Assembly: GCA_013822735.1 (NCBI GenBank)
Contig: PNKZ01000034.1
Coordinates: forward strand, 1-38,396
DNA: 38,396 nt
Source of the DNA: Pirellula sp.
GTDB lineage: Bacteria; Planctomycetota; Planctomycetia; Pirellulales; PNKZ01
Reading direction: 5' to 3'
Part shown: positions 3,329-20,065 of the stretch, in pieces
Layout: the number at the start of each line of letters is the position of its first letter
How positions within the stretch are numbered: position 1 is the stretch's first letter
Made by a program: the position numbers and the translations under genes
Notes under the pieces: model-generated
Seen by the model: the letters and a program-made list of their open reading frames with translations, nothing else
What the model was told of the DNA's origin: nothing
The model's database searches: none

Positions 3329-4540
3329 CTAACTCCAGCTTCTGCAGAACTCATATAGCACTTCCGCGGCTTGCGGGAGTTCGTCGAGTGGGAGCCATTC
3401 GTCGCAGGTGTGGGCTTGGTCGATGCTGCCGGGCCCGAAGACGACTGACGGTACGTCGGCCGCCGCAATGCGCGAGGCGTCGGTTCCGTACGGCACGCCG
3501 ATCCGCTTGCCCCGGCCGGTGATGCGCTGCGAGACTTCACCGAGCCGCGCGGCCAGTGCGCCATTCTTCTCGTCGGAAAGCGAGAAGCCGGAGATGAACG
3601 CCGGTTCGTGTTCGACGGCGCCGAGGATCGGCTGCAACTCTTCGCGGGCCGAGAGCCAGTCGATGACCTTCTGTCGGGCATCGGCGGCCTTTTCGCCGGG
3701 AAGCACGCGGCGACAGATTTCGATCGTCGAGCGGTCGGGCACCGTGTTGACGCTGATGCCGCCGCGAATGAGGCCGACGCTCAACGTGGCCTTGCCGACC
3801 AGCGGATGGCTGCCGAGCGTCGGGCAAACTTCCTTGGCATATTGTTCGAGCGCGAGCAGCACGCGAGCCATCTTGTAGACGGCGTTATCACCGAGATGCG
3901 GCTGCGAACTGTGCGAAGCGCGGCCGTGCGTATGGATGCGCCAGCGCATGGTTCCTTTGTGGGCCACGACCACGTCGAGGCTTGTCGGTTCGGCGACGAC
4001 GCAGACATCGGGACGCTTGGGGACCAGATCGTCGGGCTTTGCACCTGCTGCCCAAAGCTTGGTGAGGTCCGTTGCTCCGGTGAAGCCGAACTCTTCGTTA
4101 ACGACGCAGGCCAGCACGACGGTCGGCCGGTTGCGAGGCTGTTCTTCCCGCAGCCGGGCCATTGCGCCAAGCATCGCGGTCATGCCCCCTTTGATATCGC
4201 AGGAGCCGCGACCGTAAATGCGGCCGTCGCGCACGGTCGGCGTCCAAGGATCGATGGTCATACCCTCGACCGGCACGGTATCTTGATGCGCTTCCAGCAG
4301 AACCAGCGGGCCCCCCTTTTCCGGCGGCGTCAGGTCGCCGTCGACGCGAATTAAGATATTGTCGCGCTTCGGCGAGACGACATATCGCTTGTAGCGGAAA
4401 CCGTGATTCTGGAATAGCTTTTCCAAATAGTCGGTGACGCGGTATTCAAGATACTCAGGCCCTTCAACGTCGCGCCCCATCGGATTGACGCTCGGGATCG
4501 CGATTAGGTCGGAGAGCGTCGGTACAAGATCGAGCGGCAT
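3329..4540 (-). CDS. M20-family metallopeptidase (ArgE/DapE/CPG2-like deacylase or dipeptidase)
   Basis: A 403-residue zinc hydrolase of family M20, which removes acyl groups or C-terminal residues from amino-acid derivatives in the cytoplasm. The catalytic and metal residues are visible in order: EAHQDTVP (His85, Asp87), GRGSCDIKGG (Asp115, bridging ligand), NEEFG (Glu149 base, Glu150 ligand), AEPT (Glu184) and a C-terminal AHTCDEW (His377). The dimerisation domain lies between, with HGRASHSS near 205-212. ATG 4540 (MPLDLV) is preferred over a TTG seven codons upstream because M20 enzymes typically start just before the DLIAIPSVNP motif. The protein could be an acetylornithine deacetylase, a succinyl-diaminopimelate desuccinylase or a peptidase, and no neighbour gene decides between them. 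It is transcribed away from the nuo operon. Confidence 0.88.
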   Translation of the reverse strand: MPLDLVPTLSDLIAIPSVNPMGRDVEGPEYLEYRVTDYLEKLFQNHGFRYKRYVVSPKRDNILIRVDGDLTPPEKGGPLVLLEAHQDTVPVEGMTIDPWTPTVRDGRIYGRGSCDIKGGMTAMLGAMARLREEQPRNRPTVVLACVVNEEFGFTGATDLTKLWAAGAKPDDLVPKRPDVCVVAEPTSLDVVVAHKGTMRWRIHTHGRASHSSQPHLGDNAVYKMARVLLALEQYAKEVCPTLGSHPLVGKATLSVGLIRGGISVNTVPDRSTIEICRRVLPGEKAADARQKVIDWLSAREELQPILGAVEHEPAFISGFSLSDEKNGALAARLGEVSQRITGRGKRIGVPYGTDASRIAAADVPSVVFGPGSIDQAHTCDEWLPLDELPQAAEVLYEFCRSWS

Positions 4541-4751
4541 GCCAAAGTACCTATTGAGCAATGGGGCGTGCTAAAAATGGTCTACCGGCGACTGCGGCGA
4601 CCTGGGAAATGACCGGCGGGACCGGTAGTCTAACAGCGACGCGCAACTGGGCAAAACATTCGCCGATGATCGGCTCGCCCCGGCACCTTGCAAGGTCGAT
4701 GTTACGTCGCCGCAAGCTTTAGAAAGCTTTCGACTTGCCTCGGTGATTGCC

Positions 4752-4780
4752 TTGACCACCGGCGAAGGGATTCCTACATT
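4752..4780 (+). promoter_or_regulatory. Candidate sigma70-type promoter for the nuo operon
   Basis: TTGACC (4752-4757) and TACATT (4775-4780) are separated by 17 bases, matching the housekeeping consensus at 5/6 and 4/6 positions. Transcription would start near 4787, leaving a leader of about 145 bases that contains the hairpin and the Rex-like operator. Planctomycete promoters are poorly characterised, so this is a pattern match only. Confidence 0.4.
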
Positions 4781-4792
4781 CATTGCTGTCGT

Positions 4793-4825
4793 ACCCGGCA
4801 GGGATGCAGGTCGGGTTTTTCTTTT
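4793..4825 (+). terminator. Terminator-like hairpin in the nuo leader
   Basis: ACCCGGC (4793-4799) pairs with GTCGGGT (4810-4816), with one G-T wobble and a 10-base loop, and is followed by TTTTCTTTT. This is the form of an intrinsic terminator, yet it lies inside the leader of nuoA rather than after a gene. It could be an attenuator or could block transcription arriving from upstream. Confidence 0.4.
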
Positions 4826-4832
4826 GCACCTA

Positions 4833-4852
4833 TTTGTGAAACGATTCACAAA
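4833..4852 (+). promoter_or_regulatory. Candidate Rex operator upstream of nuoA
   Basis: TTTGTGAA (4833-4840), four bases ACGA, then TTCACAAA (4845-4852) form a perfect 8+8 inverted repeat. It fits the published Rex operator form TTGTGAA-N4-TTCACAA. Rex is an NADH/NAD+-sensing repressor known to control nuo operons, for instance in Streptomyces. The site lies 78 bases before the nuoA start. No rex gene is in this window. Confidence 0.65.
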
Positions 4853-4930
4853 GTGTCGTGGCCGGTCAGCGGCGGTGCGGAGAGAAAACGAAGCGGAGCA
4901 TCGTTCTAAATCGTTGGACAGGCTGCTGTT

Positions 4931-5353
4931 ATGCAATCAATCGGACTTACGATTCCGATCTTTCTCTTCATCATCATTGCGACCGCGCAATCGGTGGCGA
5001 TGCTGCTCATGGGGCAGCTGTTCGGCCCCTCGCGAAATACCGCCGTCAAGGAAATGCCGTACGAAAGCGGCATGGATCCGATCCACGACACACGTCGTCG
5101 CTTCGATATCCGCTTTCACTTGGTTGCTATCGCGTTCCTGGTTTTCGACGTGGAAGTACTGTTTATGTACCCCTGGGCCGTCGCCGCCAAACGTGCGACC
5201 GGCGACGAACCGGCCCGCGGCTTCGACCTTGCGGTAGCCCAAAACATGATCGCCGACCGGGGCGTGGTCTTCGGCGTGGTGATGTTCTTTATCGCCTTGT
5301 TCGGCGTCGGCTTCCTCTACGCTCTGAAGAAAGGGATCTTTCGATGGCGATAG
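4931..5353 (+). CDS. nuoA: NADH-quinone oxidoreductase subunit A
   Basis: A 140-residue membrane subunit of complex I and first gene of the nuo operon. Three transmembrane helices are visible, near residues 6-28, 62-84 and 111-132. The family signature YESGMDPI precedes FDIRFHLVAIAFLVFDVEVLFMYPW, which carries the conserved acidic residues of the second helix. NuoA helps enclose the quinone-binding region with NuoH and NuoJ. An AGG-containing ribosome site lies about eight bases before ATG 4931. It overlaps nuoB by ten bases, which implies translational coupling. Length is slightly above the usual 115-130 residues because of an insertion (AKRATGDEPARGFD) between helices 2 and 3. Confidence 0.97.
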   Translation: MQSIGLTIPIFLFIIIATAQSVAMLLMGQLFGPSRNTAVKEMPYESGMDPIHDTRRRFDIRFHLVAIAFLVFDVEVLFMYPWAVAAKRATGDEPARGFDLAVAQNMIADRGVVFGVVMFFIALFGVGFLYALKKGIFRWR

Positions 5354-5931
5354 ATCTGCCGGAAAACGTGGTCATCAGCAAGCTTGACGAGTTGGCAAGC
5401 TGGTGCCGCAAGAACAGCTTGTGGCCCATGCCCTTTGCCACCGCGTGCTGCGGCATCGAGCTCATGGCGACGGGTGCCAGCAAGCACGACATCGCGCGCT
5501 TTGGCGCCGAAGTGTTTCGCTTCAGCCCGCGCCAGTGCGACTTGATGATCGTCGCCGGCCGCGTGGTGATGAAGATGCTTCCCGTGTTACAGCGCATCTG
5601 GCAGCAGATGAACGAGCCGAAGTGGTGCATTTCGATGGGCGCGTGCGCCAGCACCGGCGGCGTGTTCGATACGTATTCCGTCGTGCAAGGCATCGACCGC
5701 TTTATTCCGGTCGACATGTATATTCCCGGCTGCCCGCCGCGTCCTGAGCAGTTGATTCAAGCGATTATCGATCTGCAGGACAAGATTCAGCGCGAAGGAA
5801 CGATGTCGGGCCGCGAGTTCGACACTTCCGAACGTCAACAACGGAAGCGAGCGTTAATCGAGTTGCCCGGCGTATACGGTTCGGGCATGTCGACGCTGGG
5901 TCCCGTCGGTCAGGGGCTGCCGCAGAGTTAG
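5344..5931 (+). CDS. nuoB: NADH-quinone oxidoreductase subunit B
   Basis: A 195-residue hydrophilic subunit that holds cluster N2, the 4Fe-4S centre that reduces quinone. The ligands are visible: adjacent Cys35-Cys36 in FATACCGIE, Cys101 in GACAST and Cys130 in PGCPPRPE. The protein sits at the base of the peripheral arm next to NuoD. ATG 5344 is inside the nuoA reading frame end (ten-base overlap) and gives a normal N-terminus directly before the conserved core; longer in-frame starts would run through all of nuoA. The C-terminal tail beyond about residue 155 is hydrophilic and variable in the family. Confidence 0.97.
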   Translation: MAIDLPENVVISKLDELASWCRKNSLWPMPFATACCGIELMATGASKHDIARFGAEVFRFSPRQCDLMIVAGRVVMKMLPVLQRIWQQMNEPKWCISMGACASTGGVFDTYSVVQGIDRFIPVDMYIPGCPPRPEQLIQAIIDLQDKIQREGTMSGREFDTSERQQRKRALIELPGVYGSGMSTLGPVGQGLPQS

Positions 5932-6003: not shown

Positions 6004-6507
6004 ATGGCTGTCGCCAGTCCGGAAACCTTGCGAGCGTTGGAGTTGTCGATCGGATCGCTCGTGCAGAGCGAATTCCGCGGGCAGACGCGCGTCGTGGTTC
6101 CTCGCGAAAGCTTGGCCGACGTTTTCACGACCTTGCGCGATAAACGCGGCTTTGATCAACTCGTCGACGTGACTTGCGTCGATTATCTCAACTATCGCGA
6201 TGCCGAACATCGCTTCGGCCTCGTGTATTTGCTGACGAGCGTCGCTTCCAACGAACGCGTTACGCTTCGCGTCTACCTCGACGAACCGGATCTCACGGTG
6301 ACGAGCGCCACCGGTTGGTGGGAAGGGGCGAATTGGATGGAGCGCGAAGTGTGGGACATGTTCGGCATTACGTTCGCCGGACATCCGGACCATCGCCGCA
6401 TCCTCTGCCCCGAAGAGTTCACGGCGCATCCGTTGCGAAAAGACTACCCGTTGCAAGGGCGCGGCGAACGTCACAATTTCCCCGTGCTTACGCGCAACCA
6501 GGCATAG
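6004..6507 (+). CDS. nuoC: NADH-quinone oxidoreductase subunit C (30-kDa subunit)
   Basis: A 167-residue peripheral-arm subunit without cofactors that packs against NuoD. The 30-kDa-subunit signature is seen at 113-133 (EREVWDMFGI, then GHPDHRRIL) and the conserved end at 142-156 (HPLRKDYPLQGRGER). It is separate from nuoD, unlike the nuoCD fusion of Escherichia coli. It follows nuoB after 72 bases that contain no obvious signal. Length and domain order are normal. Confidence 0.96.
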   Translation: MAVASPETLRALELSIGSLVQSEFRGQTRVVVPRESLADVFTTLRDKRGFDQLVDVTCVDYLNYRDAEHRFGLVYLLTSVASNERVTLRVYLDEPDLTVTSATGWWEGANWMEREVWDMFGITFAGHPDHRRILCPEEFTAHPLRKDYPLQGRGERHNFPVLTRNQA

Positions 6508-6543: not shown

Positions 6544-7773
6544 ATGGCATTGGCCGCCTCGAATATTCGTACGCAAGACATTGCTCACGACGAGCAGCAG
6601 GACTACCTGTGGACCTTGAACTTCGGTCCGCAGCATCCGGCTACGCACACGACGCTGCGCATCGTCATGAAGCTCGACGGCGAACGGGTCGTCGACGCCA
6701 TGCCCGACATCGGCTATCTGCACTCGGGCTTTGAAAAAATCGGCGAGTCGCTCGATTACAACCAGTACGTCACGGTCACCGACCGGATGAACTACATCTC
6801 GCCGATGGCCAACAACGTCGCTTGGCACACGGCCGTCGAACGGTTGCTTGGTATCGACATCACGCCCCGCTGCAAATACATCCGCACGATCATCTGCGAA
6901 CTGGCCCGCATTAGCGACCACTTGCTCTGCAACGGCGCCGTCGGGCTTGATAGCGGCGCGTTCACGTTCTTTCTCTACGCCTTCAACAAGCGCGAAGACA
7001 TCTACGATATCTTCGAAACGCTCTGCGGAGCTCGCTTCACCAACAGCTACACGCGCACCGGCGGCCTGTCACAAGACATCACTCCGCTCGTGATTGAGAA
7101 GATTCGCAAGTTTATTCAGACGTTCCCCAAAGTGCTCGAAGACATGGAGCGATTGGTCAATCGCAACCGCATCTTCGTCGACCGCACCAAGGGGGTCGGC
7201 ATTCTCACTCGGGAAGAAGCGCTCTCGCGCAGTGCGACGGGCCCGATCGCCCGCGCCAGCGGCATTACGCGCGACCTGCGTAAAGACGAACCGTATCTCG
7301 CGTACGCGGATTTCGATTTTACGGTCCCTTGCTCGAAGGTCGGGGATTGCTTCGCCCGCTACCTCGTGCGACAAGCCGAGATGCGTGAGAGCCTGAAGAT
7401 CATCACGCAGGCCCTGGAAAACATTCCGGCCGGCCCGATCAACGTCACGCCCGCCGAGCGTACGACGTTGCCGTCGAAGAAAATGGTGTACATGACCATC
7501 GAAGGGACGATTAATCACTTCGAATTGGCGATGACGAACCGCGGCTTTGAAACGCCGCACGAAGAATCGTACTCGGCGATTGAAGCGCCGAACGGGGAAC
7601 TTGGGTTTTATCTCGTCGGCAACGGCACCGACGTCGCCTATCGCGCTCGTTGCCGGCCGCCGTCGTTCATCCACTTCGCCATGTTCCCGCACTTGATTCG
7701 CGGGCACACGCTGTCGGACGTCGTCGCCGTGTTGGGAAGTTTGAACATCATCGCCGCGGAGTTGGACCGCTAA
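6544..7773 (+). CDS. nuoD: NADH-quinone oxidoreductase subunit D (49-kDa subunit)
   Basis: A 409-residue subunit that forms the quinone-binding cavity with NuoB and NuoH; it descends from the large subunit of NiFe hydrogenases. It begins with the motif FGPQHPATHTTLR (His31 and His35) and continues with DAMPDIGYLHSGFEKIGE and DRMNYISPM. His35 and Tyr84 are the likely counterparts of the quinone head-group ligands known in Thermus complex I, by motif position. The C-terminal ISVV-like segment reads LSDVVAVLGSLNIIAAELDR, the normal end of the family. It lies 36 bases after nuoC and two bases before nuoE. Confidence 0.97.
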   Translation: MALAASNIRTQDIAHDEQQDYLWTLNFGPQHPATHTTLRIVMKLDGERVVDAMPDIGYLHSGFEKIGESLDYNQYVTVTDRMNYISPMANNVAWHTAVERLLGIDITPRCKYIRTIICELARISDHLLCNGAVGLDSGAFTFFLYAFNKREDIYDIFETLCGARFTNSYTRTGGLSQDITPLVIEKIRKFIQTFPKVLEDMERLVNRNRIFVDRTKGVGILTREEALSRSATGPIARASGITRDLRKDEPYLAYADFDFTVPCSKVGDCFARYLVRQAEMRESLKIITQALENIPAGPINVTPAERTTLPSKKMVYMTIEGTINHFELAMTNRGFETPHEESYSAIEAPNGELGFYLVGNGTDVAYRARCRPPSFIHFAMFPHLIRGHTLSDVVAVLGSLNIIAAELDR

Positions 7774-9809: not shown

Positions 9810-11447
9810 ATGGGCACTGTATTAGTCGACGGAATTGAAGTACCGGTAGCCGACAACGAACGCCTCAACGGCATTCAGGCCGCCGAACGCGCGGGCATCG
9901 ACATCCCGCACTATTGCTGGCATGCGGGCCTTTCCGTCGTGGCGAGCTGCCGCATGTGCTTGGTGGAGCAAGGGACGAAAGATCCCGCGACCGGCAAGAT
10001 CACAATGATCCCGAAGGTTGTGCCCGCCTGTCAGACGCCGGCGAAAGACGGCACGGTGTTCATCACCAATAGCGACAAGGTCAAGCAGTGCCGCGCTCAG
10101 GTCGAAGAGGCGTTGTTGATCGACCACCCGATCGACTGCCCCATCTGCGACAAGGCCGGCGAATGCCGCCTGCAAGATTACTACTTCGAACATGGTCAGC
10201 CGGAACGTCGTGCCGACATCCGGCCGTTCCACAGCCCAAAGCGCGAAATGGGGGACACGGTCACCCTGTTCGTCGACCGCTGCGTGATGTGCACGCGTTG
10301 CGTCCGTTTCACGCGTGAGATCACCGGCACCAGCGAACTAATGGTGACCAATCGCGGCAGCCACGAAGAGATCGACGTCTTCCCCGGCTTCCCCTTGGCG
10401 AACAAGATGTCCGGCAACGTCGTCGACCTTTGTCCCGTGGGTGCGCTAGGGGACAAAGACTTCATGTACCAGCAACGCGTTTGGTTTATGAAGTCGCACG
10501 ACGGCATTTGCACCGGCTGCTCGACCGGCTGCAATATCGAAGTCGAGGAGAATCAAGACCGCGTCTACCGCTTGAAGCCGCGCGAGAACGCGCAGGTAAA
10601 TCAATGGTGGATGTGCGACGAAGGCCGATACGGCTATCACCACGTGCACGCGGAGGATCGTCAGGTCGGTCCGCGACGTCGCGAAGGCGACAAGTATGTG
10701 AACATCGAGTGGAACACCGTCACGGCGGAGATGAAGGCCAAACTGACCGCCGCAGGCCGCATCGGTGCCGTGATTTCGCCGCATCTCACGATCGAAGAAG
10801 CGTACCTACTCATCAAGTATGTGCGCTCGATCGATCCTGCCGCGGTGCTCGCGCTCGGGCCGGTGCCGGTCATCGGCACGGACGAACGCTTCCCCAACGG
10901 CTTCACGATCCATGCCGAAAAGGCGCCGAACCGCCGCGGCATTGAGATGTTGCTCGCGCATTTCGGCGGCAAGGTGTTGAGCTTCGTCGATTTCCAAAAG
11001 GAGCTCGACGCCAAGACGCTCCGCGCCGTTTGGGTTTCGGCGGGCTACAAGAAATCCGATTGGAACGACGAAACCACGGCGCGCAAATTTGCCGGCCTCG
11101 ACGTGCTCGTTGTCCAAGATTTGTTTTCGTCGCCGCTGTGGAATATGGCGACGTATCAACTTCCGGGCGGCTCTTTTGCCGAGCGTGAAGGTTCGTACGT
11201 CAATTTCCAAGATCGTCTGCAGACCGCGAAGTTTGCGATTCGCCCGCCGGTGGGCGCTTGGGTCGAAGGGCAGCTTTACTGGCGCTTGCTCGAACGGCCG
11301 GGGCTCTACCAAAGTCGCAAGGTGCTCACCGAAGCCGCGGCCGAAGTTACCGCCTTGCATTTGGCGCTAGGGGGCGTGCCGCCGACGGGGCTCGATCTCC
11401 GTGCGAATCAGCTTGCCGGTGAAAAGAAGGAAGCTGCAACCGTTTAG
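9810..11447 (+). CDS. nuoG: NADH-quinone oxidoreductase subunit G, short form with N7 ligands
   Basis: A 545-residue Fe-S subunit that carries electrons from NuoF towards NuoI. Ligands are visible for N1b (Cys36, Cys47, Cys50, Cys74), N5 (His106, Cys110, Cys113, Cys119) and N4 (Cys158, Cys161, Cys164, Cys208). Cys234, Cys237, Cys241 and Cys269 form CxxCxxxC-x27-C, the pattern of the extra cluster N7 found only in some bacteria. The molybdopterin-oxidoreductase-like region from about 225 is short: bacterial NuoG is commonly 680-900 residues. No frameshift is apparent, because the reading frame ends cleanly and nuoH follows after 53 bases. ATG 9810 gives a normal ferredoxin-like N-terminus. Confidence 0.95.
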   Translation: MGTVLVDGIEVPVADNERLNGIQAAERAGIDIPHYCWHAGLSVVASCRMCLVEQGTKDPATGKITMIPKVVPACQTPAKDGTVFITNSDKVKQCRAQVEEALLIDHPIDCPICDKAGECRLQDYYFEHGQPERRADIRPFHSPKREMGDTVTLFVDRCVMCTRCVRFTREITGTSELMVTNRGSHEEIDVFPGFPLANKMSGNVVDLCPVGALGDKDFMYQQRVWFMKSHDGICTGCSTGCNIEVEENQDRVYRLKPRENAQVNQWWMCDEGRYGYHHVHAEDRQVGPRRREGDKYVNIEWNTVTAEMKAKLTAAGRIGAVISPHLTIEEAYLLIKYVRSIDPAAVLALGPVPVIGTDERFPNGFTIHAEKAPNRRGIEMLLAHFGGKVLSFVDFQKELDAKTLRAVWVSAGYKKSDWNDETTARKFAGLDVLVVQDLFSSPLWNMATYQLPGGSFAEREGSYVNFQDRLQTAKFAIRPPVGAWVEGQLYWRLLERPGLYQSRKVLTEAAAEVTALHLALGGVPPTGLDLRANQLAGEKKEAATV

Positions 11448-11500
11448 TCCGCCTGCGATTCGCAATAGCCGTCCCCAATACATCCCTACAAAGTTTCGCA

Positions 11501-12772
11501 ATGCTCGCTATTTCCATCGAAGCCCTCATTAAGATCGCGCTGCTGGTCGGCGGTTTGATGACCGGGGCGGCGTACTTCGTTCTGCTCGAGCGATGGATCG
11601 CCGCTTGGGTGCAAGACCGCAAAGGCCCGAATCGCGTCGGCATACCGCTTACGAAGATCAAGCTCTTCGGCCTCGGGCAACCGCTGGCCGACGGCCTGAA
11701 GTTCATCTTCAAGGAAGAGGCGACGCCCCGACACGTCGACAAGGTGCTCTTCACGCTCGCGCCGATTTCGATTCTCGCCGCAGCGCTGGCGATCTACGCC
11801 GTGATTCCGTTCGGCAGCGTGTTGCCGAAAGACGGTGTCCCGGGCGTCGATCATCAAATCAATCTCATCGTCGCACCCGGCATCGACGTCGGCATGATCT
11901 ACATGTTCGCCCTGTCGAGCATCGCCGTTTACGGCGTGATTCTCGGCGGTTGGGCCAGCAATAGCAAATACAGCCTCCTCGGCGGATTGCGATCGAGCGC
12001 GCAGCTCATCGCGTATGAGCTTCCGATGGGCTTGGCGATCGTCGGCGTCGTGCTGATGACCGGCTCGATGCGTTTGGAAGAGGTGATCGGCGTGCAGGCC
12101 TCGACCGGCACCTGGTTCGCCTTCTCGCAACCGCTCGGCTTCGTGATTTTCGTCGTCGCCTCGTTTGCCGAAGCGGCGCGCTTGCCCTTCGATCTTCCGG
12201 AAGCGGAACAAGAGCTCGTCGGCGGTTATCACACCGAATACGCCGGCATGCGGCTGATCATGTATCTCATCGCCGAATTCTTGCACATGATCACGGCGTC
12301 GTTCCTTATCGCCATACTCTTCCTCGGCGGTTGGCATTTCTGGGGCATCACCGGCGGCAGCAGCACCGACGTCACTTGGTTCCAAGCGATCGCCCGCATC
12401 GTGGTGCTGAACGTCAAGATTTTCGCGATCATCGTGTTCTTCATGCTCGCTCGCTGGAGCTGGCCGCGGTTCCGCTTCGATCAACTCATGTCGCTGGCCT
12501 GGAAAGTGATGCTGCCGCTCGGCCTGGTGAATCTGGTCGCGGTCGCCTGCCTCGTCGAATACCAGCCTGTGCTCGAATCGAAGCTCGGATCGCTCGGCAT
12601 CACCGCCGCCATGTGGGCCATCGCCTTCGTGGCTTGGATCGCGGCCGGCATTCTCGCTCCGCTCCACTCCGACAATTCCGCTCGCAAAGATAATTTCGTG
12701 CTCGACGCCGAACGCCGCAATCGCGGCCTCCGTCCCGGTATTGCCGGCCCGAGTGCCACAGGACCTTACTAA
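11501..12772 (+). CDS. nuoH: NADH-quinone oxidoreductase subunit H
   Basis: A 423-residue membrane subunit linking the peripheral arm to the proton pumps and forming most of the quinone tunnel. Family motifs are ERWIAAWVQDRKGPNRVG (residues 30-47), QPLADGLKFIFKEE and the loop EAARLPFDLPEAEQELVGGYHTEY near 223-247. Eight or nine transmembrane helices can be traced. It is longer than the 325 residues of the Escherichia coli protein, partly from a hydrophilic C-terminal tail rich in Arg and Asn (from about 385). Its stop codon shares one base with the nuoI start (TAATG), so the two are translationally coupled. Confidence 0.96.
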   Translation: MLAISIEALIKIALLVGGLMTGAAYFVLLERWIAAWVQDRKGPNRVGIPLTKIKLFGLGQPLADGLKFIFKEEATPRHVDKVLFTLAPISILAAALAIYAVIPFGSVLPKDGVPGVDHQINLIVAPGIDVGMIYMFALSSIAVYGVILGGWASNSKYSLLGGLRSSAQLIAYELPMGLAIVGVVLMTGSMRLEEVIGVQASTGTWFAFSQPLGFVIFVVASFAEAARLPFDLPEAEQELVGGYHTEYAGMRLIMYLIAEFLHMITASFLIAILFLGGWHFWGITGGSSTDVTWFQAIARIVVLNVKIFAIIVFFMLARWSWPRFRFDQLMSLAWKVMLPLGLVNLVAVACLVEYQPVLESKLGSLGITAAMWAIAFVAWIAAGILAPLHSDNSARKDNFVLDAERRNRGLRPGIAGPSATGPY

Positions 12773-13305
12773 TGAAACCCGACGACGCCCAAGTGAATTG
12801 GGTCGAAGAGCCGAAGCTGGGGCTGACGGGCAAGATGTACTTGCCTCTCATTTTCAGCGGATTGGCCGTCACGACCAAGCATCTCTTCGGCCCGAAGATG
12901 ACGGTGAGCTTCCCCGAGCAGCGGCCGGAAATCGGCAACCCGCTGATCTATCGCGGCGTGCACCGGCTGAACAAAGACGAGCAAGGGCGCGTGAAGTGCG
13001 TCGCGTGCTTCCTTTGCGCCACGGCCTGCCCCGCGCACTGTATCGACATCATCGCCGCGCCAAGCCCCTGGCCGGATCGCGATAAGTATTGCGAGAGTTT
13101 TACGATCGACGAACTCCGCTGCATCTTTTGCGGCATGTGCGAAGAAGCTTGTCCGGTCGACGCCGTTGAACTCACGAGCTTGTTCGACCTGACGGGCCGC
13201 AGCCGCGAAGAGATGATCTTCGACAAAGAAAAACTACTGAGCGTGTACGACATGACGAAAGACGCCGAGCCGATGAAGTCGCGCGTCATGGGAGCGTCCC
13301 CATGA
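12772..13305 (+). CDS. nuoI: NADH-quinone oxidoreductase subunit I (two 4Fe-4S)
   Basis: A 177-residue ferredoxin-like subunit that carries clusters N6a and N6b and hands electrons to N2 in NuoB. Both binding motifs are complete: Cys76, Cys79, Cys82, Cys86 (CVACFLCATACP) and Cys117, Cys120, Cys123, Cys127 (CIFCGMCEEACP). The Cys ending the second motif completes the first cluster and the reverse, as in all 8Fe ferredoxins. The N-terminal segment FSGLAVTTKHLFG is the usual amphipathic anchor. ATG overlaps the nuoH stop by one base; the gene overlaps nuoJ by four (ATGA). Confidence 0.97.
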   Translation: MKPDDAQVNWVEEPKLGLTGKMYLPLIFSGLAVTTKHLFGPKMTVSFPEQRPEIGNPLIYRGVHRLNKDEQGRVKCVACFLCATACPAHCIDIIAAPSPWPDRDKYCESFTIDELRCIFCGMCEEACPVDAVELTSLFDLTGRSREEMIFDKEKLLSVYDMTKDAEPMKSRVMGASP

Positions 13306-14075
13306 CCGGAATCGACAACATCACTCTCATCGCTTCGCTGCTGTTAGGCCTGGGCCTGTGGATGCTGCTGCCGCGCGGTTCGTCGCGCGGCAAGGCGTTC
13401 GGCCTCGTACTCACGACGGCGGCCATGGGGCTGTTTGCCTATAAGCTCTTTCCGCTCGACGACCTCGTGAGCGACGCCGTGTTCTACGTCATGACGGCCG
13501 TCACGTTGGTGTCGGCCGTTGGCGCCGTCACGATGCGGAGCCCCGTGTATTGTGCCATTTGGTTCGCGCTCACGCTGCTCGGCACCGCAGGCTTGTTCTT
13601 CTTCCAAGGGGCGCAGTTTCTCGGCGTGGCGACCATCGTCGTTTATGCCGGGGCAATCCTCGTCACGTTTCTCTTCGTGCTCATGCTCTGCAATCCCGAG
13701 GGAGACTCGCTCTACGACCGGTTGAGCTTCGAGGCCGGCATCTCGTCGATCACCGGAGCGCTCCTGGTCGGTTTGCTCACTTGGACGGCCGCCGCCACGG
13801 TATTCGGCGACGCTAAGGCTGTCGCTGCCAAGCCCGCCGAAGGCCCGGCGCCGATTGCGTTCGCAAGCTCATACGAAGCGCAAGGCAAGAGCATTCTCAC
13901 GGACCACCACGTCGAGCGGCTCGGCATGGAACTCTTCACGCGGCATCTGCTGGCCGTCGAAGTTGCCGGCACCTTGCTCTTGGTCGCTCTGGTCGGAGCC
14001 GTCGCCATCGTCGCCCACAGTCGTCCTGCCGATGAACTCGGCCCTGCCACGGAGGAGGGCCGCCGCAATGCCTAA
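13302..14075 (+). CDS. nuoJ: NADH-quinone oxidoreductase subunit J
   Basis: A 257-residue membrane subunit that contacts NuoA, NuoH and NuoK. Hydrophobic helices are visible near residues 5-20, 25-42, 53-71, 82-100, 105-125 and 143-165, with one more near 219-240. The conserved region reads RSPVYCAIWFALTLLGTAGLFFFQGAQFLGVATIVVYAGAILVTFLFVLML. A hydrophilic segment of some 50 residues (about 170-218, KAVAAKPAEGPAPIAF and onwards) separates the last helix from the core, making the protein longer than the usual 165-200 residues. It starts on the nuoI stop (ATGA) and overlaps nuoK by eight bases. Confidence 0.95.
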   Translation: MTGIDNITLIASLLLGLGLWMLLPRGSSRGKAFGLVLTTAAMGLFAYKLFPLDDLVSDAVFYVMTAVTLVSAVGAVTMRSPVYCAIWFALTLLGTAGLFFFQGAQFLGVATIVVYAGAILVTFLFVLMLCNPEGDSLYDRLSFEAGISSITGALLVGLLTWTAAATVFGDAKAVAAKPAEGPAPIAFASSYEAQGKSILTDHHVERLGMELFTRHLLAVEVAGTLLLVALVGAVAIVAHSRPADELGPATEEGRRNA

Positions 14076-14535
14076 CGAATTCGATCATGCACTCGCCGAA
14101 ATCCATCTCCTGCAAAACTACCTGCTCATCGGCGCCGTTCTGTTCACCGTCGGGCTAGTCGGCTTCCTCGCGCGGCGGAACATGATCGTCATGTTTCTCG
14201 CCGCCGAAATGATGCTGCAAGGCGTTTCGGTCAGCCTCGTCGGTTGGGGACGTTTCCACAACGACTGGGGCGGCCAGATGCTCGTCATCTTCATTCTCAC
14301 CGTCGCGGCCTGCGAAGCGGCCATCGCGTTGGCGCTGATTCAGATGCTCTTTCAACGCAGCGGCAACCTCGATATCGCCATCTGGCAGCGGCTGCGCGAA
14401 GAAAACCAACCGGCCTACGTCGATCGCGAGATTCCCGAAGATTTCGATCCCAAGCAAGTCTTCCCGACCCTCACGCCGGCCGGCATCGATCCGCATATTC
14501 GCGAAGAAGAAACCATTCACCGGACGCACGTTTAG
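14068..14535 (+). CDS. nuoK: NADH-quinone oxidoreductase subunit K with long C-terminal tail
   Basis: A 155-residue antiporter-like membrane subunit. Three helices lie near residues 17-34, 38-60 and 69-94, and the two proton-channel glutamates are in place: Glu47 (AAEMML) and Glu83 (ACEAA), equivalent to Glu36 and Glu72 of Escherichia coli. Typical NuoK ends near residue 100. Here a hydrophilic tail of about 57 residues follows (98-155), rich in Glu, Asp, Pro and Arg. A strong GGAGGAGGG ribosome site lies inside the end of nuoJ, with an eight-base overlap. The tail continues in frame with normal codon use, so it is not a read-through artefact of a missed stop. Confidence 0.95.
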   Translation: MPNEFDHALAEIHLLQNYLLIGAVLFTVGLVGFLARRNMIVMFLAAEMMLQGVSVSLVGWGRFHNDWGGQMLVIFILTVAACEAAIALALIQMLFQRSGNLDIAIWQRLREENQPAYVDREIPEDFDPKQVFPTLTPAGIDPHIREEETIHRTHV

Positions 14536-14595
14536 TCACTTTCACGCTCCCGGCACTCACACATCGAACCGTCGCTCGCGCGGCGCGGAATTGGA

Positions 14596-16644
14596 ATGTT
14601 CAATAGTATCGAAAAGCTGATGGTGCTCGTCCCGGCGTTGCCCCTCGCGGCCACGTTCGTCACGGCGATCCTCGGCAAACGTTGGTTGAAAGAGCGCAGC
14701 CATTGGCCGGTGCTGATTTGCATCGGTGCGGCGTTTCTCGTGAGCCTCCGGCTACTTTCGCTCGTCGCGACCGAGAGCAACCAGCCCGGCGTGCGAGCGG
14801 TCGAACACACGGTGACGCTCGGCACTTGGGTCCTCGTGGAAGACGCCGCCAAGGTCGACGGCGCCGCTCGCGATTTCGTCGTCGACTTCACGCTCCGCTC
14901 CGATCCGCTTACGGCCATCATGCTCACGATGGTCACCTTCGTGGCCACGCTCGTCGTCGTCTACGCCTCGGGCTACATGCACGGCGACGCCGGCTATTGG
15001 CGGTTCTTCACCTACGTCGGTCTCTTCGTCTTCTCGATGACGATGCTCGTTTCCGTGAGCAACTTTCTCTTGCTCTACGTGTTCTGGGAAGCGGTCGGCG
15101 TTTGTAGCTATTTGCTGATCGGATTTTGGTTTGAAAAGCCCGAAGCGGCCGCGGCCGGCAAGAAGGCGTTTCTCGTCAATCGCATCGGCGACTTCGGCTT
15201 CGCAATCGGCATCTTCTTAATTTTCCTAACGTACGGCACGCTCAATTTTCACGACACTGCCGGTGTCCCGGGCGTGCTGGGCGCCACGCGGTTGGCAAGC
15301 AACGCCTATCTCGCCGGCGCTATCGGCACCGCGATTCCGCTGCTGCTTTTCGTCGGCGCGTGCGGCAAGAGCGCTCAGTTTCCGCTGCATGTCTGGTTGC
15401 CCGATGCGATGGAAGGCCCCACCCCCGTCAGCGCGCTCATCCACGCGGCGACGATGGTCACCGCCGGCGTCTATATGGTCACCCGTTGCACGCCGCTTTA
15501 CGCAGTGTCGGAAGTCGCGCTGATGACGGTCTCGACCGTCGGCGGTTTCACGGCGCTCTTGGCGGGCCTGATCGCGCTCACGCAGAACGATCTCAAGCGC
15601 GTGATGGCGTACTCCACCGTCAGCCAACTCGGTTACATGTTCCTCGGCCTCGGCACGGGCTCGCTCGCCGGCGTCACCGGCGGCATGTTCCACTTGTTCA
15701 CGCACGCCTTCTTCAAGGCCCTCTTGTTCCTCGGGGCCGGCAGCGTGATGCATGCCATGCATCATGTGATCGATATGCGTCGCTTCAGCGGCTTGCGGCA
15801 CATCATGCCCTGGACGCACAAGACGTTTTGGTTCGGCTGTTTGGCGCTAGCGGGCGTGTTTCCGTTCGCCGGCTTCTACAGCAAAGATATGATTCTCGGC
15901 GCCGTGCATGAGAAGGCCCACGGCCACATGAACCTCTACGCGGTTCTGTATTATTCCGGCCTCTTCACGGCGTTCCTTACGGCGTTTTACACCTTCCGTG
16001 CTTTGTTCCTCACGTTCTTCGGCCCCTTGCGCACGCCGCCGGAAGCCCATCACCCGCACGAATCGCCGCGCACGATGACGGTGCCGCTGATCATCCTCGC
16101 CGTGTGCGCCGTGTCGGTCGGCGCGTTCGTCGAACTGAGTCATGTTTACACGCTGCTCTGGCACACGCCTTCGCTTACGACCGGCGTCGTCGGCGCAACG
16201 GCCGCTCCGCTGCTTCAGGATCACCACGGTCTCGAGATGCATTTCGACGTCGCGGCTTTGAGTACCGTCGTTGCGGCGGCGGGCATCGGGTTGGCGGCGT
16301 TTATGTACCTCGGCAAACGTACCGAAGCGCAAACCATCGCCGAGCTCACGAGCACGCGCCGCGGTCTCTGGGGCTATCAGTTGTCGCTCAACAAGTTCTA
16401 CTTCGACGAGATCTATCAGGTCCTGTTTGTCCTGCCGCTCCGCGGCGTGGCGGCCTTGAGCTATCTCGTCGATCGCTACATTATCGACGCGCTCGTCAAC
16501 TTTGTGGGTTGGGTTCCGCGTGCCGTCGGCGGACTGCTCCGCTCGCTGCAAACCGGCATGGTGCAGTTCTATGCACTGGCGATGGTTCTCGGCATGCTCG
16601 TCCTGCTCGGCTCGCTCCGTCTCGCCGCAGTGTTCGGCAACTAA
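14596..16644 (+). CDS. nuoL: NADH-quinone oxidoreductase subunit L
   Basis: A 682-residue antiporter-like proton-pumping subunit at the distal end of the membrane arm. The core Proton_antipo_M region includes FWEAVGVCSYLLIGFWFEKPEAA, KSAQFPLHVWLPDAMEGPTPVSALIHAATMVTAGVYM and QNDLKRVMAYSTVSQLGYM, with the conserved Lys and His residues of the proton path. The C-terminal part contains the amphipathic lateral helix and a final transmembrane anchor near 655-677. Length is somewhat above the Escherichia coli protein (613). ATG 14596 has TTGGA directly upstream. It lies 60 bases after nuoK. Confidence 0.96.
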   Translation: MFNSIEKLMVLVPALPLAATFVTAILGKRWLKERSHWPVLICIGAAFLVSLRLLSLVATESNQPGVRAVEHTVTLGTWVLVEDAAKVDGAARDFVVDFTLRSDPLTAIMLTMVTFVATLVVVYASGYMHGDAGYWRFFTYVGLFVFSMTMLVSVSNFLLLYVFWEAVGVCSYLLIGFWFEKPEAAAAGKKAFLVNRIGDFGFAIGIFLIFLTYGTLNFHDTAGVPGVLGATRLASNAYLAGAIGTAIPLLLFVGACGKSAQFPLHVWLPDAMEGPTPVSALIHAATMVTAGVYMVTRCTPLYAVSEVALMTVSTVGGFTALLAGLIALTQNDLKRVMAYSTVSQLGYMFLGLGTGSLAGVTGGMFHLFTHAFFKALLFLGAGSVMHAMHHVIDMRRFSGLRHIMPWTHKTFWFGCLALAGVFPFAGFYSKDMILGAVHEKAHGHMNLYAVLYYSGLFTAFLTAFYTFRALFLTFFGPLRTPPEAHHPHESPRTMTVPLIILAVCAVSVGAFVELSHVYTLLWHTPSLTTGVVGATAAPLLQDHHGLEMHFDVAALSTVVAAAGIGLAAFMYLGKRTEAQTIAELTSTRRGLWGYQLSLNKFYFDEIYQVLFVLPLRGVAALSYLVDRYIIDALVNFVGWVPRAVGGLLRSLQTGMVQFYALAMVLGMLVLLGSLRLAAVFGN

Positions 16645-16689
16645 CCGTCATAAATCATAACTCCTAACTCATAATTTCCCGGGGTCTTC

Positions 16690-18492
16690 GTGAACGAACT
16701 GGTCGTCGCCATCTTGCTGCCGCTCATCGGCGTGGGGCTCATCTGGGCCTTGGCCGACGGAAGCCGCGTCGTCGCGCGCTGGATCGCGCTGGCCGTCTCG
16801 CTCGTCACGCTCTACTGGGCGGCCAAGTGCGTGCTGGCTAAGACGCTACCCTCATACAACATTCCTTGGTTCACTTCGACCGGCGTCGACATCCGCTTCA
16901 ACCTCGGACTCGACGGGCTCAGCCTCTGGATGTTCGCGCTGAGCGCCCTATTGTCCGTCACGGCAATTCTCGTCAGCTGGGAAGCGATCAAGGAGCGCGG
17001 CCCGCTCTTCTACTCGCTCCTGTTGATCCTCGAGTCCGGCATGCTCGGCGTATTCTCCGCGCGAGACGTCCTGCTTTTCTACGTCTTCTTCGAATTCACG
17101 CTCATTCCGCTCTTCTTCCTGATCGGCGTCTGGGGAAGCGAAGATCGTCGCTATGCCGCGGTGAAGTTCTTTCTCTTCACCCTCGCCGGCAGCATGCTTA
17201 CGTTTCTCGGCATGTTGGCCATCGTGCTACTGCATGCCGACAAAAATCCCGAACTCGGTATCACGTTCAGCATTCCGGAAATCACTGCCGGGCTGGCCAA
17301 GTATCCGCTTTCTGCCACGCAGCAGTTCTGGATTTTTCTGGCGCTCTTCGCCGGCTTTGCCGTGAAGGTGCCGCTGTTTCCTCTGCACACGTGGTTGCCG
17401 CTCGCGCACGTGCAGGCTCCCACGGCCGGCTCCGTGTTGCTGGCCGGCATCCTGCTGAAGATCGGTACCTACGGTTTCCTCCGCTTCAACATGGCGATGC
17501 TTCCGGTCGGCACGGTCACGTGCATGCCGTGGGTTCTCTGGCTCTCCGCCGGCGGCATTCTGTACGGCGCCTTCGTCGCGTTGGCGCAAAGCGACGTCAA
17601 GCGCCTCATCGCCTATTCGTCGGTGAGCCACTTGGGTTACTGCATGCTCGGCCTATTCGCCTTGAACCCGCTCGGCATGCAAGGGGGCGTGTTGCAAATG
17701 ATCAATCACGGCATCAGCACCGGCGGCCTGTTTGCCACGTTCGGCATGATTTACGAACGATATCACACCCGTGAAATCCGCGAACTCGGCGGCCTTGCCC
17801 GACGCATTCCGTTGCTGTCGCTGTTCATGCTGTTGTTTACCTTCTCCAGCATCGGCCTGCCCGGCATGAACGGTTTCGCCGGCGAGTTCTTGATTCTGCT
17901 CGGGATGTTCCAGCGCGGCTATGCTCAGGCTCCCGCCTTCTATCAATGGCAATGGACCGCGATTGCCGTGCTCGCCGTCTTCGGCGTCGTGCTCGGTGCT
18001 TGGTACATGCTCTGGCTCTACCAACGCGTGTTTTTCGGCCCGCTCAAAGAGCCGGCAGATCACGGTGCCGATGATCACGGCGCCCACGACCATGCGGCCG
18101 CCGATGCGCACGCCGCTCACGGCCACGATGCGCATGGTCATGACGCCCATGGCCACGATGCTTCCGGGCACGACGACCACGGTCACGGCGTCGCCGCTCT
18201 TCCGCCGTCGTCGGTGCGCGACATGAACGCGCGCGAATTCTGGGCCTTGGCTCCGCTCGTGGTGCTCGTGTTTTGGATCGGCGTCTTCCCGCAAACTTTC
18301 TTAGCGCCGATGCAGGCCGACATCAATGCAGTGTCGACGACCGTCGAATCCGCCTACGCCGCGCATGAGTGGCCGGTGAAGGATTCCGCCGTCGTCGCCG
18401 GTTCCCTCCCTTCCCCGTCCGTCGCCCAACCGCAGCCGGCCGCGCTCGATGCCGTCGCCGCCGAGACTTTGGAGTTTGCCCGTGTCGAGTGA
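16690..18492 (+). CDS. nuoM: NADH-quinone oxidoreductase subunit M with His-rich loop
   Basis: A 600-residue antiporter-like proton-pumping subunit. Family motifs include FNLGLDGLSLWM, FYVFFEFTLIPLFFLIGVWG, KVPLFPLHTWLPLAHVQAPTAGSVLLAG and QSDVKRLIAYSSVSHLGYC. The start is GTG 16690, with GGGG before it. Between GPLKEPAD and the last helices (ALAPLVVLVFWIGVFP) lies a 43-residue insertion, residues 458-500, holding 14 His with many Asp and Gly in a HGHDA-like repeat. The DNA shows the same as a 30-base direct repeat (GGCCACGATGC at 18121 and 18151). A C-terminal tail of about 55 residues is Ala- and Val-rich. The gene overlaps nuoN by 11 bases. Confidence 0.96.
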   Translation: MNELVVAILLPLIGVGLIWALADGSRVVARWIALAVSLVTLYWAAKCVLAKTLPSYNIPWFTSTGVDIRFNLGLDGLSLWMFALSALLSVTAILVSWEAIKERGPLFYSLLLILESGMLGVFSARDVLLFYVFFEFTLIPLFFLIGVWGSEDRRYAAVKFFLFTLAGSMLTFLGMLAIVLLHADKNPELGITFSIPEITAGLAKYPLSATQQFWIFLALFAGFAVKVPLFPLHTWLPLAHVQAPTAGSVLLAGILLKIGTYGFLRFNMAMLPVGTVTCMPWVLWLSAGGILYGAFVALAQSDVKRLIAYSSVSHLGYCMLGLFALNPLGMQGGVLQMINHGISTGGLFATFGMIYERYHTREIRELGGLARRIPLLSLFMLLFTFSSIGLPGMNGFAGEFLILLGMFQRGYAQAPAFYQWQWTAIAVLAVFGVVLGAWYMLWLYQRVFFGPLKEPADHGADDHGAHDHAAADAHAAHGHDAHGHDAHGHDASGHDDHGHGVAALPPSSVRDMNAREFWALAPLVVLVFWIGVFPQTFLAPMQADINAVSTTVESAYAAHEWPVKDSAVVAGSLPSPSVAQPQPAALDAVAAETLEFARVE

Positions 18493-20065
18493 TACCGTAT
18501 CCATTCTCCTCCCCGAGCTGATTGTCGTTCTCACGGCGACGTTCATCTACGTCGCCGGTGCGTTCCTGCCGGGCAAGAAGTTCTGGGGCGCGCTGGCCTT
18601 GGTCGGCGTCGCCGCCGCGGGCTTCGTGCTGGCCGGGCAGTCGGAAAAGGCCGCCGCCGTCGTCGCCGCGAATGAAGCAGGCCCGTTGGCCGTCGATCTT
18701 ATGGGCCGCTACGTTCGCGGGCTTGCGCTCTTGGTCGGAGCAATTTTCGTGCTGGCCGCCGCTCGTCCGCAGAACGAATCGCTCATTCCGGAATACGTCG
18801 GCACGGTTCTTATGGCGGTCGCCGGGCTGATGTTGGTCGGGGGTGCGCGTGAGCTGACTTTGCTCTTCCTCGGCTTGGAACTCATCTCCATTCCGACGTA
18901 CATCTTGCTCTACCTCGGGCGTCGCGACGGCGCGAGCGCCGAATCGGCCGCGAAGTATTTCTTCCTCAGCGTGCTTTCCTCCGCGATCACGCTCTACGGC
19001 TTCAGCTATCTCTACGGCGTCGGCGGTTCCACGCGGCTCGACATCATCCAGGCCGCCATGGCGAAAGCGCTAGTCACTCCGGCGACGACCGGGGCGCTCT
19101 TTGCCCAATTGGCCCTGGTTTTGGTTTTCGCCGGCCTCGGCTTCAAGATCGCCGCGGTGCCGTTTCACTTTTATGCGCCCGACGTTTATCAAGGCACGAC
19201 CCACACCAACGCGGGACTCTTGGCCGTGCTTCCCAAGATCGCGGGCATCGCCGCTTTGGTGCGCATCGCGTCGATCGCGATGCCGGGGGTCGAAGAAACC
19301 GGTCTACGCGTGACGATGATCCTCGCCCTGCTCACCATGACGCTCGGTAACGTCGTGGCCCTCTGGCAAGACAATATCCGTCGGATGCTGGCCTATTCGT
19401 CGATTGCCCACGCCGGCTACATGCTCGTCGGCCTCGCGGTCGACTTTGCGGCGCACAAAAGCGACGACCCGGCGTTGCAGGACGTCGACGGCATCGGCGC
19501 GGCGCTCTTCTACGTCGCCGTCTATTCGTTGGCGACTGCAGGATCGTTCGCCGCCTTCGCCTACCTCGGCAGCCGCGACAAGCAAGTCGACACGATCGAC
19601 GACCTCGCCGGCGTCGGCGGCAAGTTTCCGGCCGTCGCGTTGGCCATTGCGGTGTTCATGTTCAGCCTGACCGGTCTTCCTCCCTTGGCCGGATTTTGGG
19701 GTAAGTTTGCCCTTTTCTCCGGCGCAGTGAAAGTTGGACTTGCCGGCGCCGAGTCGGTGAAGCTCTCCAGTTGGTTCATCGTGTTGTCGATCGTCGGCGT
19801 GCTGAACGCGGCGGTATCCGCGGCGTACTATTTGCGAATCATCGGCGTGATGTACTTCCGCGAGTCGTCGACTTCGGCCGCGCGCGGCGAAGGTGGATCC
19901 GGCGCACGTTTGGCTGCTTTCTCGTGTGCGCTGCTGGTGATTGCCGTCGGCCTCGCACCAAGCCGGTTGTCGCAAGATTCGCAGGATGCGGCGACTTCCG
20001 CCCGTGCGCCGGCGAAGGTGAGCGCAGCCGTTGCCGCCGTCGCGCAAGTCGGCGACGCACGATAG
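18482..20065 (+). CDS. nuoN: NADH-quinone oxidoreductase subunit N
   Basis: A 527-residue antiporter-like proton-pumping subunit, last gene of the operon. The core shows YFFLSVLSSAITLYGFSYLYG, FKIAAVPFHFYAPDVYQGTTHTNAGLLAVLPK and QDNIRRMLAYSSIAHAGYM, typical of NuoN. GTG 18482 is chosen because GGAG at 18471-18474 is seven bases upstream and the first helix (TVSILLPELIVVLTATFIYVAG) follows at once; an upstream ATG at 18449 would add 11 residues and lies deeper in nuoM. The C-terminal 50 residues are Ala-, Ser- and Gln-rich and not conserved. No terminator is obvious in the 53 bases to the next gene. Confidence 0.96.
   Translation: MSSDTVSILLPELIVVLTATFIYVAGAFLPGKKFWGALALVGVAAAGFVLAGQSEKAAAVVAANEAGPLAVDLMGRYVRGLALLVGAIFVLAAARPQNESLIPEYVGTVLMAVAGLMLVGGARELTLLFLGLELISIPTYILLYLGRRDGASAESAAKYFFLSVLSSAITLYGFSYLYGVGGSTRLDIIQAAMAKALVTPATTGALFAQLALVLVFAGLGFKIAAVPFHFYAPDVYQGTTHTNAGLLAVLPKIAGIAALVRIASIAMPGVEETGLRVTMILALLTMTLGNVVALWQDNIRRMLAYSSIAHAGYMLVGLAVDFAAHKSDDPALQDVDGIGAALFYVAVYSLATAGSFAAFAYLGSRDKQVDTIDDLAGVGGKFPAVALAIAVFMFSLTGLPPLAGFWGKFALFSGAVKVGLAGAESVKLSSWFIVLSIVGVLNAAVSAAYYLRIIGVMYFRESSTSAARGEGGSGARLAAFSCALLVIAVGLAPSRLSQDSQDAATSARAPAKVSAAVAAVAQVGDAR

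Follow-up and report, generated by a model that had tools for sequence, protein, structure and literature searches.

The complex I (nuo) operon of Pirellula sp. is preceded by a perfect Rex-type operator that is conserved before nuoA in relatives and stands behind a predicted promoter and a terminator-like hairpin. We read this arrangement as belonging to a small Rex regulon, with an operator at nuo where Rex may gate transcription termination, and put the probability of the combined reading at roughly 0.55, a figure that gives credit to its Rex part. Its parts differ in strength. Rex very probably controls nuo in this group, where it would bind the operator and respond to NADH. The further idea that Rex, reading the NADH/NAD+ ratio, acts as a roadblock gating a promoter-proximal intrinsic terminator is put forward tentatively, with odds somewhat short of even, as a termination event that the layout suggests.

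The stretch of Pirellula sp. DNA that was analysed (38,396 nucleotides, hereafter the window) has the following features around the operator:

3329 to 4561, minus strand: ArgE/DapE-family deacylase gene, divergent from nuo (profile scan)
4752 to 4757, plus strand: -35 element TTGACC of a predicted sigma-70-type promoter (9 of 12 matches, spacer of 17)
4775 to 4780, plus strand: -10 element TACATT of the predicted promoter, with an inferred transcription start at about 4787
4793 to 4816, plus strand: GC-rich, terminator-like hairpin ACCCGGC-(10)-GTCGGGT (relaxed test and folding)
4817 to 4825, plus strand: T-run of the terminator-like element (TTTTCTTTT), read in the sequence
4833 to 4852, no strand assigned: Rex-type operator TTTGTGAA-ACGA-TTCACAAA, with an 18-base core at 4834 to 4851
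4931 to 5353, plus strand: nuoA, first gene of the complex I operon (NCBIfam NF005839)
5344 to 5931, plus strand: nuoB (start read by eye; residues 164–323 of the ORF at 4858–5931 match NuoB models)
6004 to 6507, plus strand: nuoC (profile scan)
6544 to 7773, plus strand: nuoD (profile scan)
9810 to 20065, plus strand: nuoG, nuoH, nuoI, nuoJ and three proton-pump (antiporter-type) subunits (profile scan)

The initial annotation had noticed an 8+8 perfect inverted repeat 78 bases before nuoA, and the sequence confirms its coordinates: the arms occupy 4833–4840 and 4845–4852 around a spacer at 4841–4844, and 78 bases (4853–4930) separate the repeat from the nuoA ATG at 4931. The operator is the sole match to TTGTGAANNNNTTCACAA with fewer than three mismatches in the window, and the AGT right after its core (4852–4854) is conserved in relatives. 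The nuoA product matches NF005839 with an E value of 2.2e-23 and 82.8 bits, under the model cut-off of 163, and the three proton-pump subunits occupy the nuoL-nuoM-nuoN position of the operon. Directly after the operon lies a gene for a sigma-54-type activator (PAS, Sigma54_activat and Fis HTH domains; 20119–21579). A NUBPL-type iron-sulfur P-loop gene follows at 22189–23271, and we presume that it may encode a complex I assembly factor.

The operator is widely conserved before nuoA. We sampled 57 genomes of the same order, in 55 of which a NuoA match was found, and obtained 45 regions upstream of nuo1-type nuoA from 44 genomes. An operator with at most three mismatches was present in 41 of the 45 regions versus 1 of 420 equal-length, mostly coding windows of the same loci; 16 of these operators had no mismatch, 18 had one, 5 had two and 2 had three. 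Among the named planctomycete loci, which are the best 80 of a longer list less two without upstream sequence (L198 and L260), 72 of 78 carried the operator versus 1 of 517 control windows, again mostly coding DNA, and some of these loci come from the same genomes as the order sample. A further locus without upstream sequence (L009) was dropped, its genome being represented by L112. Dinucleotide shuffles of the 78 regions yielded a site with at most three mismatches in 9 of 1,560 cases. The operator is absent from six of the 78 loci drawn from the best 80 (L220, L251, L257, L263, L270 and L276). Across the 57 genomes, TTGTGAN6TCACAA occurs at 96 sites versus 1 for the reversed control. In relatives the nuo operator extends to ACTTTGTGA-N6-TCACAAAGT (for example, L024 1430–1455), and 79 aligned nuoA upstream regions show that the right-hand AGT (96–97%) is more conserved than the left-hand ACT (86–90%), that operator position 7 is mostly C and that position 12 is always T. 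A chance palindrome without function is not a credible source of this operator, and we give it a negligible probability, as the counts in the order sample and in the loci drawn from the best 80, set against their controls, already contradict it.

A single gene in the genome carries PF06971, and its product combines this domain with CoA_binding (winged helix and NAD-binding domain, respectively). The protein scores 251 bits against the NCBIfam Rex model NF003995 (cut-off of 126) and aligns with solved Rex structures over nearly its full length. In the Rex-DNA structure from T. maritima, as described in the part of the report used here, 12 residues contact DNA (PMC8836258). Eight of the 12 are identical in the Pirellula protein, including the base-reading Arg48 and Lys49, and these contacts are kept in the Rex proteins of 29–30 of 30 genomes, the window genome included (R12, S33, Q46, R48, G58, G61 and Y64 are invariant in all 30, and K49 is present in 29). 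At the remaining four contacts the Pirellula protein departs from T. maritima Rex (K43 to T, R60 to P, E34 to K and S52 to A); the Lys43 position is T or S in all 30 proteins, and the position of Arg60, a minor-groove contact, is P in 29. The glycines of the NAD site are invariant in 30 of 30 proteins, all but one of the 30 have Asn92 and Tyr100, and Asp191 is retained in the window genome's Rex when aligned with the solved structures. Autoregulation of rex was considered and rejected, since none of the 30 rex loci has an operator with three or fewer mismatches from -300 to +200 of the frame. Reading the repeat as a Rex site, as the initial annotation proposed, is supported by the presence of this one rex gene, by the conservation of the repeat upstream of nuoA in relatives and by the same motif upstream of other respiratory genes.

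The motif alone cannot decide between Rex and the CRP/FNR family, because the consensus of HcpR and CRP, as stated in the part of the study consulted (PMC545781), is TTGTGAN6TCACAA and identical to the operator motif. Rex therefore needed to be separated from CRP/FNR regulators, a point that the initial annotation had not raised; these were searched by the PF13545 profile only. We found rex in 34 of the 40 genomes with the nuoA site versus one of the four nuo1 genomes without it. These four same-order genomes form one family (f17: G022, G038, G046 and G056); rex is missing in three of them, and the fourth has a divergent rex with 39% identity. All four have a PF13545 match over the cut-off, which argues against a CRP/FNR regulator as the reader of the site. 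So does the lack of a PF13545 match over the cut-off in 22 of the 40 site-bearing genomes, including G025, which has nine perfect sites and no PF13545 match at all. Outside the order, 149 genomes were sampled from the phylum and their 20 highest-scoring NuoA places were used. The palindrome TYGTG-N8-CACRA, a criterion set after the sites had been seen, precedes nuoA in both rex-bearing genomes (G173 and G185), is absent from all 18 without rex, and occurs in 4 of 1,000 shuffles of these regions. When mismatches alone are counted and up to three allowed, the site is found in one of the two rex-bearing genomes and in two of the 18 rex-less ones (one-sided, G105 and G177).

The main result against Rex is the group of six site-bearing draft genomes (G019, G028, G035, G039, G041 and G047) in which neither the profile nor the full-length protein detected rex. 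These drafts are 73–98% complete and include the only two sampled members of one family. We attribute this to missing contigs or, in that family, perhaps to another regulator. A CRP/FNR match over the cut-off is present in five of the six, compared with 13 of the 34 rex-bearing genomes with the site. This pattern, the 18 of 40 site-bearing genomes with PF13545 over the cut-off, the shared consensus and a CRP/FNR gene in G019 with its own TTGTGAGCTAGCTCACAA upstream would fit a CRP/FNR-family regulator of HcpR type that reads the site instead of Rex and answers a signal other than NADH. We consider such a regulator improbable given the distribution of rex and of PF13545 within the order and the co-occurrence of rex and palindrome outside it. 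The G019 gene is at L164 2104–2961 on the minus strand (G019:C297), with the palindrome 39 bases upstream (site 3001); the palindrome TTGTGAGCTAGCTCACAA is also found 161 bases before a gene without a Pfam match in L165.

Proceeding with Rex as the reader, we turn to the DNA between the promoter and the operator. The analysis used 100 operator-bearing regions with at least 150 bases before the operator; some genomes are represented twice, leaving 79 non-redundant regions. A sigma-70-type promoter was recognised in 51 of the 100 regions versus 56 of 1,000 shuffles, and for 34 of the 51 the end of the -10 element falls between -44 and -48 relative to the operator. In another lineage the element is TGTATAA (23 of the 79 non-redundant regions versus 4 of 1,580 shuffles). 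The promoter signal is enriched in front of the operator (19 of 66 versus 2 of 330 shuffles) and not behind it (1 of 66 versus 4 of 330). A -10 element inside the operator was also considered and rejected, as positions 7 and 8 are unfit (C or A at the first, and A in only 51–68% at the second). The predicted promoter would place the start of the window's operator about 48 bases into the transcript, behind the hairpin, which the initial annotation had not noticed; in the group as read here the operator would begin some 40–50 bases after the start and occupy about bases 40–65 of the inferred transcript.

The segment between the two elements is occupied by the hairpin and its T-run. In the window the hairpin folds at -12.5 kcal/mol (z of -1.89), and 9 of 200 shuffles fold equally well. 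Its loop of 10 bases lets it pass the relaxed test alone; the terminator scan and the strict hairpin test are both limited to loops of 8, and the scan lists the hairpin in L024 and L015 but not in the window. A hairpin followed by a T-run passes the strict test in 52 of 100 regions versus 31 of 2,000 shuffles and the relaxed test in 72 of 100 versus 47 of 1,000. About two thirds of the non-redundant regions (52 of 79) have the hairpin, and it is missing by the same criteria in 27. Within the window's genus, G000 and G001 pass the hairpin test, G002 falls just short and G003 fails. The median folding z of the segment is -2.12, compared with +0.18 and -0.36 in two control windows. Furthermore, the 52 hairpins have 49 different 5' arms with pairing retained, and T occupies positions -16 to -11 from the operator in 71–89% of the 79 aligned regions. 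Counted from the operator, the 52 stems end at -16 with a standard deviation (sd) of 1.22, whereas the distance to the operator varies with an sd of 9.5 for the -10 element of 29 TTGAC-type promoters, 8.4 for 22 TATAA-type promoters (plain text match) and 25 for nuoA.

The hairpin is peculiar to nuo among the sites compared, being absent at all 16 other Rex-type sites examined. At these the promoter, where recognisable, adjoins the operator: a TATAAT ends 3 bases before the mqnA operator, and TTGACA with a -10-like element ending 10–13 bases before the operator is found at the Rieske operon. A search of 4300–5100 returned no Rfam match at gathering level; a known RNA family at the leader was rejected because the seven matches were all far below the gathering score. 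Nor is the hairpin simply the terminator of a co-directional upstream gene, since it also stands beside divergent ones. It was found in 17 of 29 regions whose longest upstream ORF, a crude measure, is on the minus strand and in 27 of 38 with a plus-strand ORF, as well as in 10 of 19 regions with a divergent argE-like gene. In the window, the ArgE/DapE-family gene is divergent and so feeds no transcription into the promoter-hairpin unit. An RNA antiterminator formed by the operator palindrome was also rejected, because the operator is transcribed after the hairpin; in addition, changes in its left flank are unmatched on the right.

The order of promoter, hairpin with U-run, and operator leads us to propose a roadblock near the U-run rather than competition for the promoter. 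The operator, transcribed after the hairpin, cannot alter it through RNA, but a protein bound there could stop the polymerase. In an oxidised cell, NAD+-bound Rex would sit on the nuo operator and keep complex I low. Instead of denying RNA polymerase the promoter, it would stop the elongating enzyme next to the U-run, and the hairpin might then release the polymerase held there, a redox-gated premature termination. At low NADH, Rex would in this way make a weak intrinsic terminator effective; NADH would free the operator of Rex and allow nuo to be made. In bacterial RNA polymerase the leading edge is about 15 base pairs ahead of the active site. An enzyme positioned at the U-run would therefore be in contact with the operator, which fits the proposal but is no proof of it. 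If true, this would be an attenuator built on a protein roadblock, without an RNA-binding protein, riboswitch or ribosome, and complex I would be switched by termination and not by promoter access.

Roadblock repression is known for CcpA, CodY, PurR, GalR and LacI from the parts of two reports drawn on here (PMC10310618, PMC4132739). In those systems a repressor bound downstream of the start would stop the elongating polymerase, as we propose for Rex; unlike in them, the block at nuo would follow a terminator-like hairpin at constant spacing. Words starting with "intrinsic terminat" are absent from the main text of PMC10310618, as are words starting with "intrinsic" from that of PMC4132739. 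A repressor roadblock acting via an intrinsic terminator was likewise absent from the titles and abstract openings among the matches listed in full-text literature searches. The layout suggests a link between the two processes.

A serious competitor to gated termination, which we hold possible at about one chance in three, is ordinary Rex control in which the hairpin serves only as an insulator or is the relic of a terminator, transcription passes constitutively through the leader, and Rex blocks from its place on early transcribed DNA. The mqnA and Rieske sites, with the promoter right before the operator, fit this simpler scheme, as do the 27 of 79 regions without a hairpin by the criteria used and four loci (L210, L226, L228 and L231) in which TGTATAA starts 18–28 bases before the operator and no hairpin is present. 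An insulator or relic does not, however, lead one to expect a hairpin held at a fixed distance from the operator while promoter and gene move, pairing preserved by covariation, its absence from every other site examined or its occurrence beside divergent upstream genes, those next to argE-like genes included. It is unlikely, though less remote than a CRP/FNR reader, that a separate small RNA arises from the promoter-hairpin unit while nuoA is transcribed from a non-consensus promoter of its own, within the operator or beyond it. A transcript ended by the hairpin and U-run would be only about 30–45 bases long, the spacing from T-run to operator core is 17 bases, like that of -35 and -10 elements, and the stronger conservation of the right-hand AGT would also suit a promoter. 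Yet the sigma-70 signal downstream of the operator does not exceed that of shuffles, operator positions 7 and 8 make a poor -10 element, the four hairpin-less lineages carry TGTATAA right before the operator, and the search of 4300–5100 against Rfam gave no match at gathering level. Rex-gated termination, as part of the reading that we prefer, is the more tentative half of a proposal whose Rex half is well supported.

Comparison with characterised systems sets the planctomycete layout apart. In Streptomyces avermitilis, Rex represses nuoA1-N1 according to EMSA, ChIP and a rex deletion, as reported in the part of the paper used here (PMC5355995). That operon likewise has a Rex-type palindrome before it with the same asymmetry (TTGTGACCTGCTTCACAT), and the region protected by Rex at nuoA1 spans -42 to -16, over the promoter (PMC5355995, same part). 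The planctomycete layout therefore differs: its nuo operator, flanked by the conserved AGT, lies inside the inferred transcript and is preceded by a terminator-like hairpin. The Staphylococcus aureus Rex consensus TTGTGAAW4TTCACAA, from the portion of that study consulted, shares the same 14 fixed bases, but its targets there are anaerobically induced genes (PMC2883068), whereas here they are respiratory chain and menaquinone genes. The Desulfovibrio HcpR regulon has the same TTGTGAN6TCACAA consensus and energy-metabolism targets, but HcpR is described in the cited excerpt as CRP/FNR-type (PMC545781), in contrast to the 22 of 40 site-bearing genomes here without PF13545 over the cut-off.

A scan of the whole Pirellula sp. 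genome (6.88 Mb, 38 contigs, 99% complete) with TTGTGN8CACAA returned five sites versus one for the reversed control pattern, all five at respiratory or electron-transfer genes:

Site 1: the nuo operon of the window, before nuoA
Site 2: a CBS-domain gene, followed by korAB, a two-gene 2-oxoacid:ferredoxin oxidoreductase (POR_N/POR and TPP domains)
Site 3: a menaquinone pair, VitK2_biosynth (MqnA-type) and a CofH/MqnC-type radical SAM enzyme
Site 4: the Rieske-cytochrome b operon
Site 5: a second nuo operon, between nuoA2 and nuoC2 and directly before the nuoC2 start

These sites predict a planctomycete redox regulon that comprises two complex I operons, Rieske/cytochrome b, menaquinone synthesis and 2-oxoacid:ferredoxin oxidoreductase. 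The longer pattern TTGTGAAN4TTCACAA has three exact matches in the genome and four with one mismatch. At up to three mismatches there are 144 matches versus 103 for the control, a small excess indicating that the weak matches are mostly noise. Matches with two or three mismatches were considered as regulon members and left out, because 10 of the 11 fetched loci have the match inside a predicted ORF and the count hardly exceeds the control. A one-mismatch site before moaC-polyprenyl synthase and another about 500 bases before a PrkA-like gene (named from its translation by eye) are leads only. Among the matches listed in literature searches we found no description of a planctomycete Rex regulon, the one listed paper with a planctomycete term being on Micromonospora; Ravcheev et al. 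2012, who reportedly compared Rex regulons across genomes, may have included planctomycetes.

For the other targets in relatives, we examined 46 loci at perfect sites away from nuoA, taken from among the matches listed. Within these matches, the Rieske operon has a site in eight genomes (G000, G003, G004, G006, G010, G014, G016 and G028), mqnA in two genomes of one family and the CBS-kor genes in two genomes of one genus, the second recognised by eye. A third genome among them has a CBS-domain gene beside a site, and the PrkA-like gene has one in two of the genomes, judged by eye. Many single sites without such neighbours may be chance or lineage-specific. The nuoC2 site, checked in 25 genomes, is restricted to the four members of the genus (with three mismatches in G003) and one member of the family; the second nuo operon is divergent and found at locus L004 (G000:C7:30000-40000). 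Finally, sites of the TTGTGATTTTTTTCACAA kind lie 360–440 bases before homologous genes in three genomes (L152 3001, L155 596 and L048 3025); the G000 site has three mismatches, and DUF4912 is present in both of the proteins scanned.
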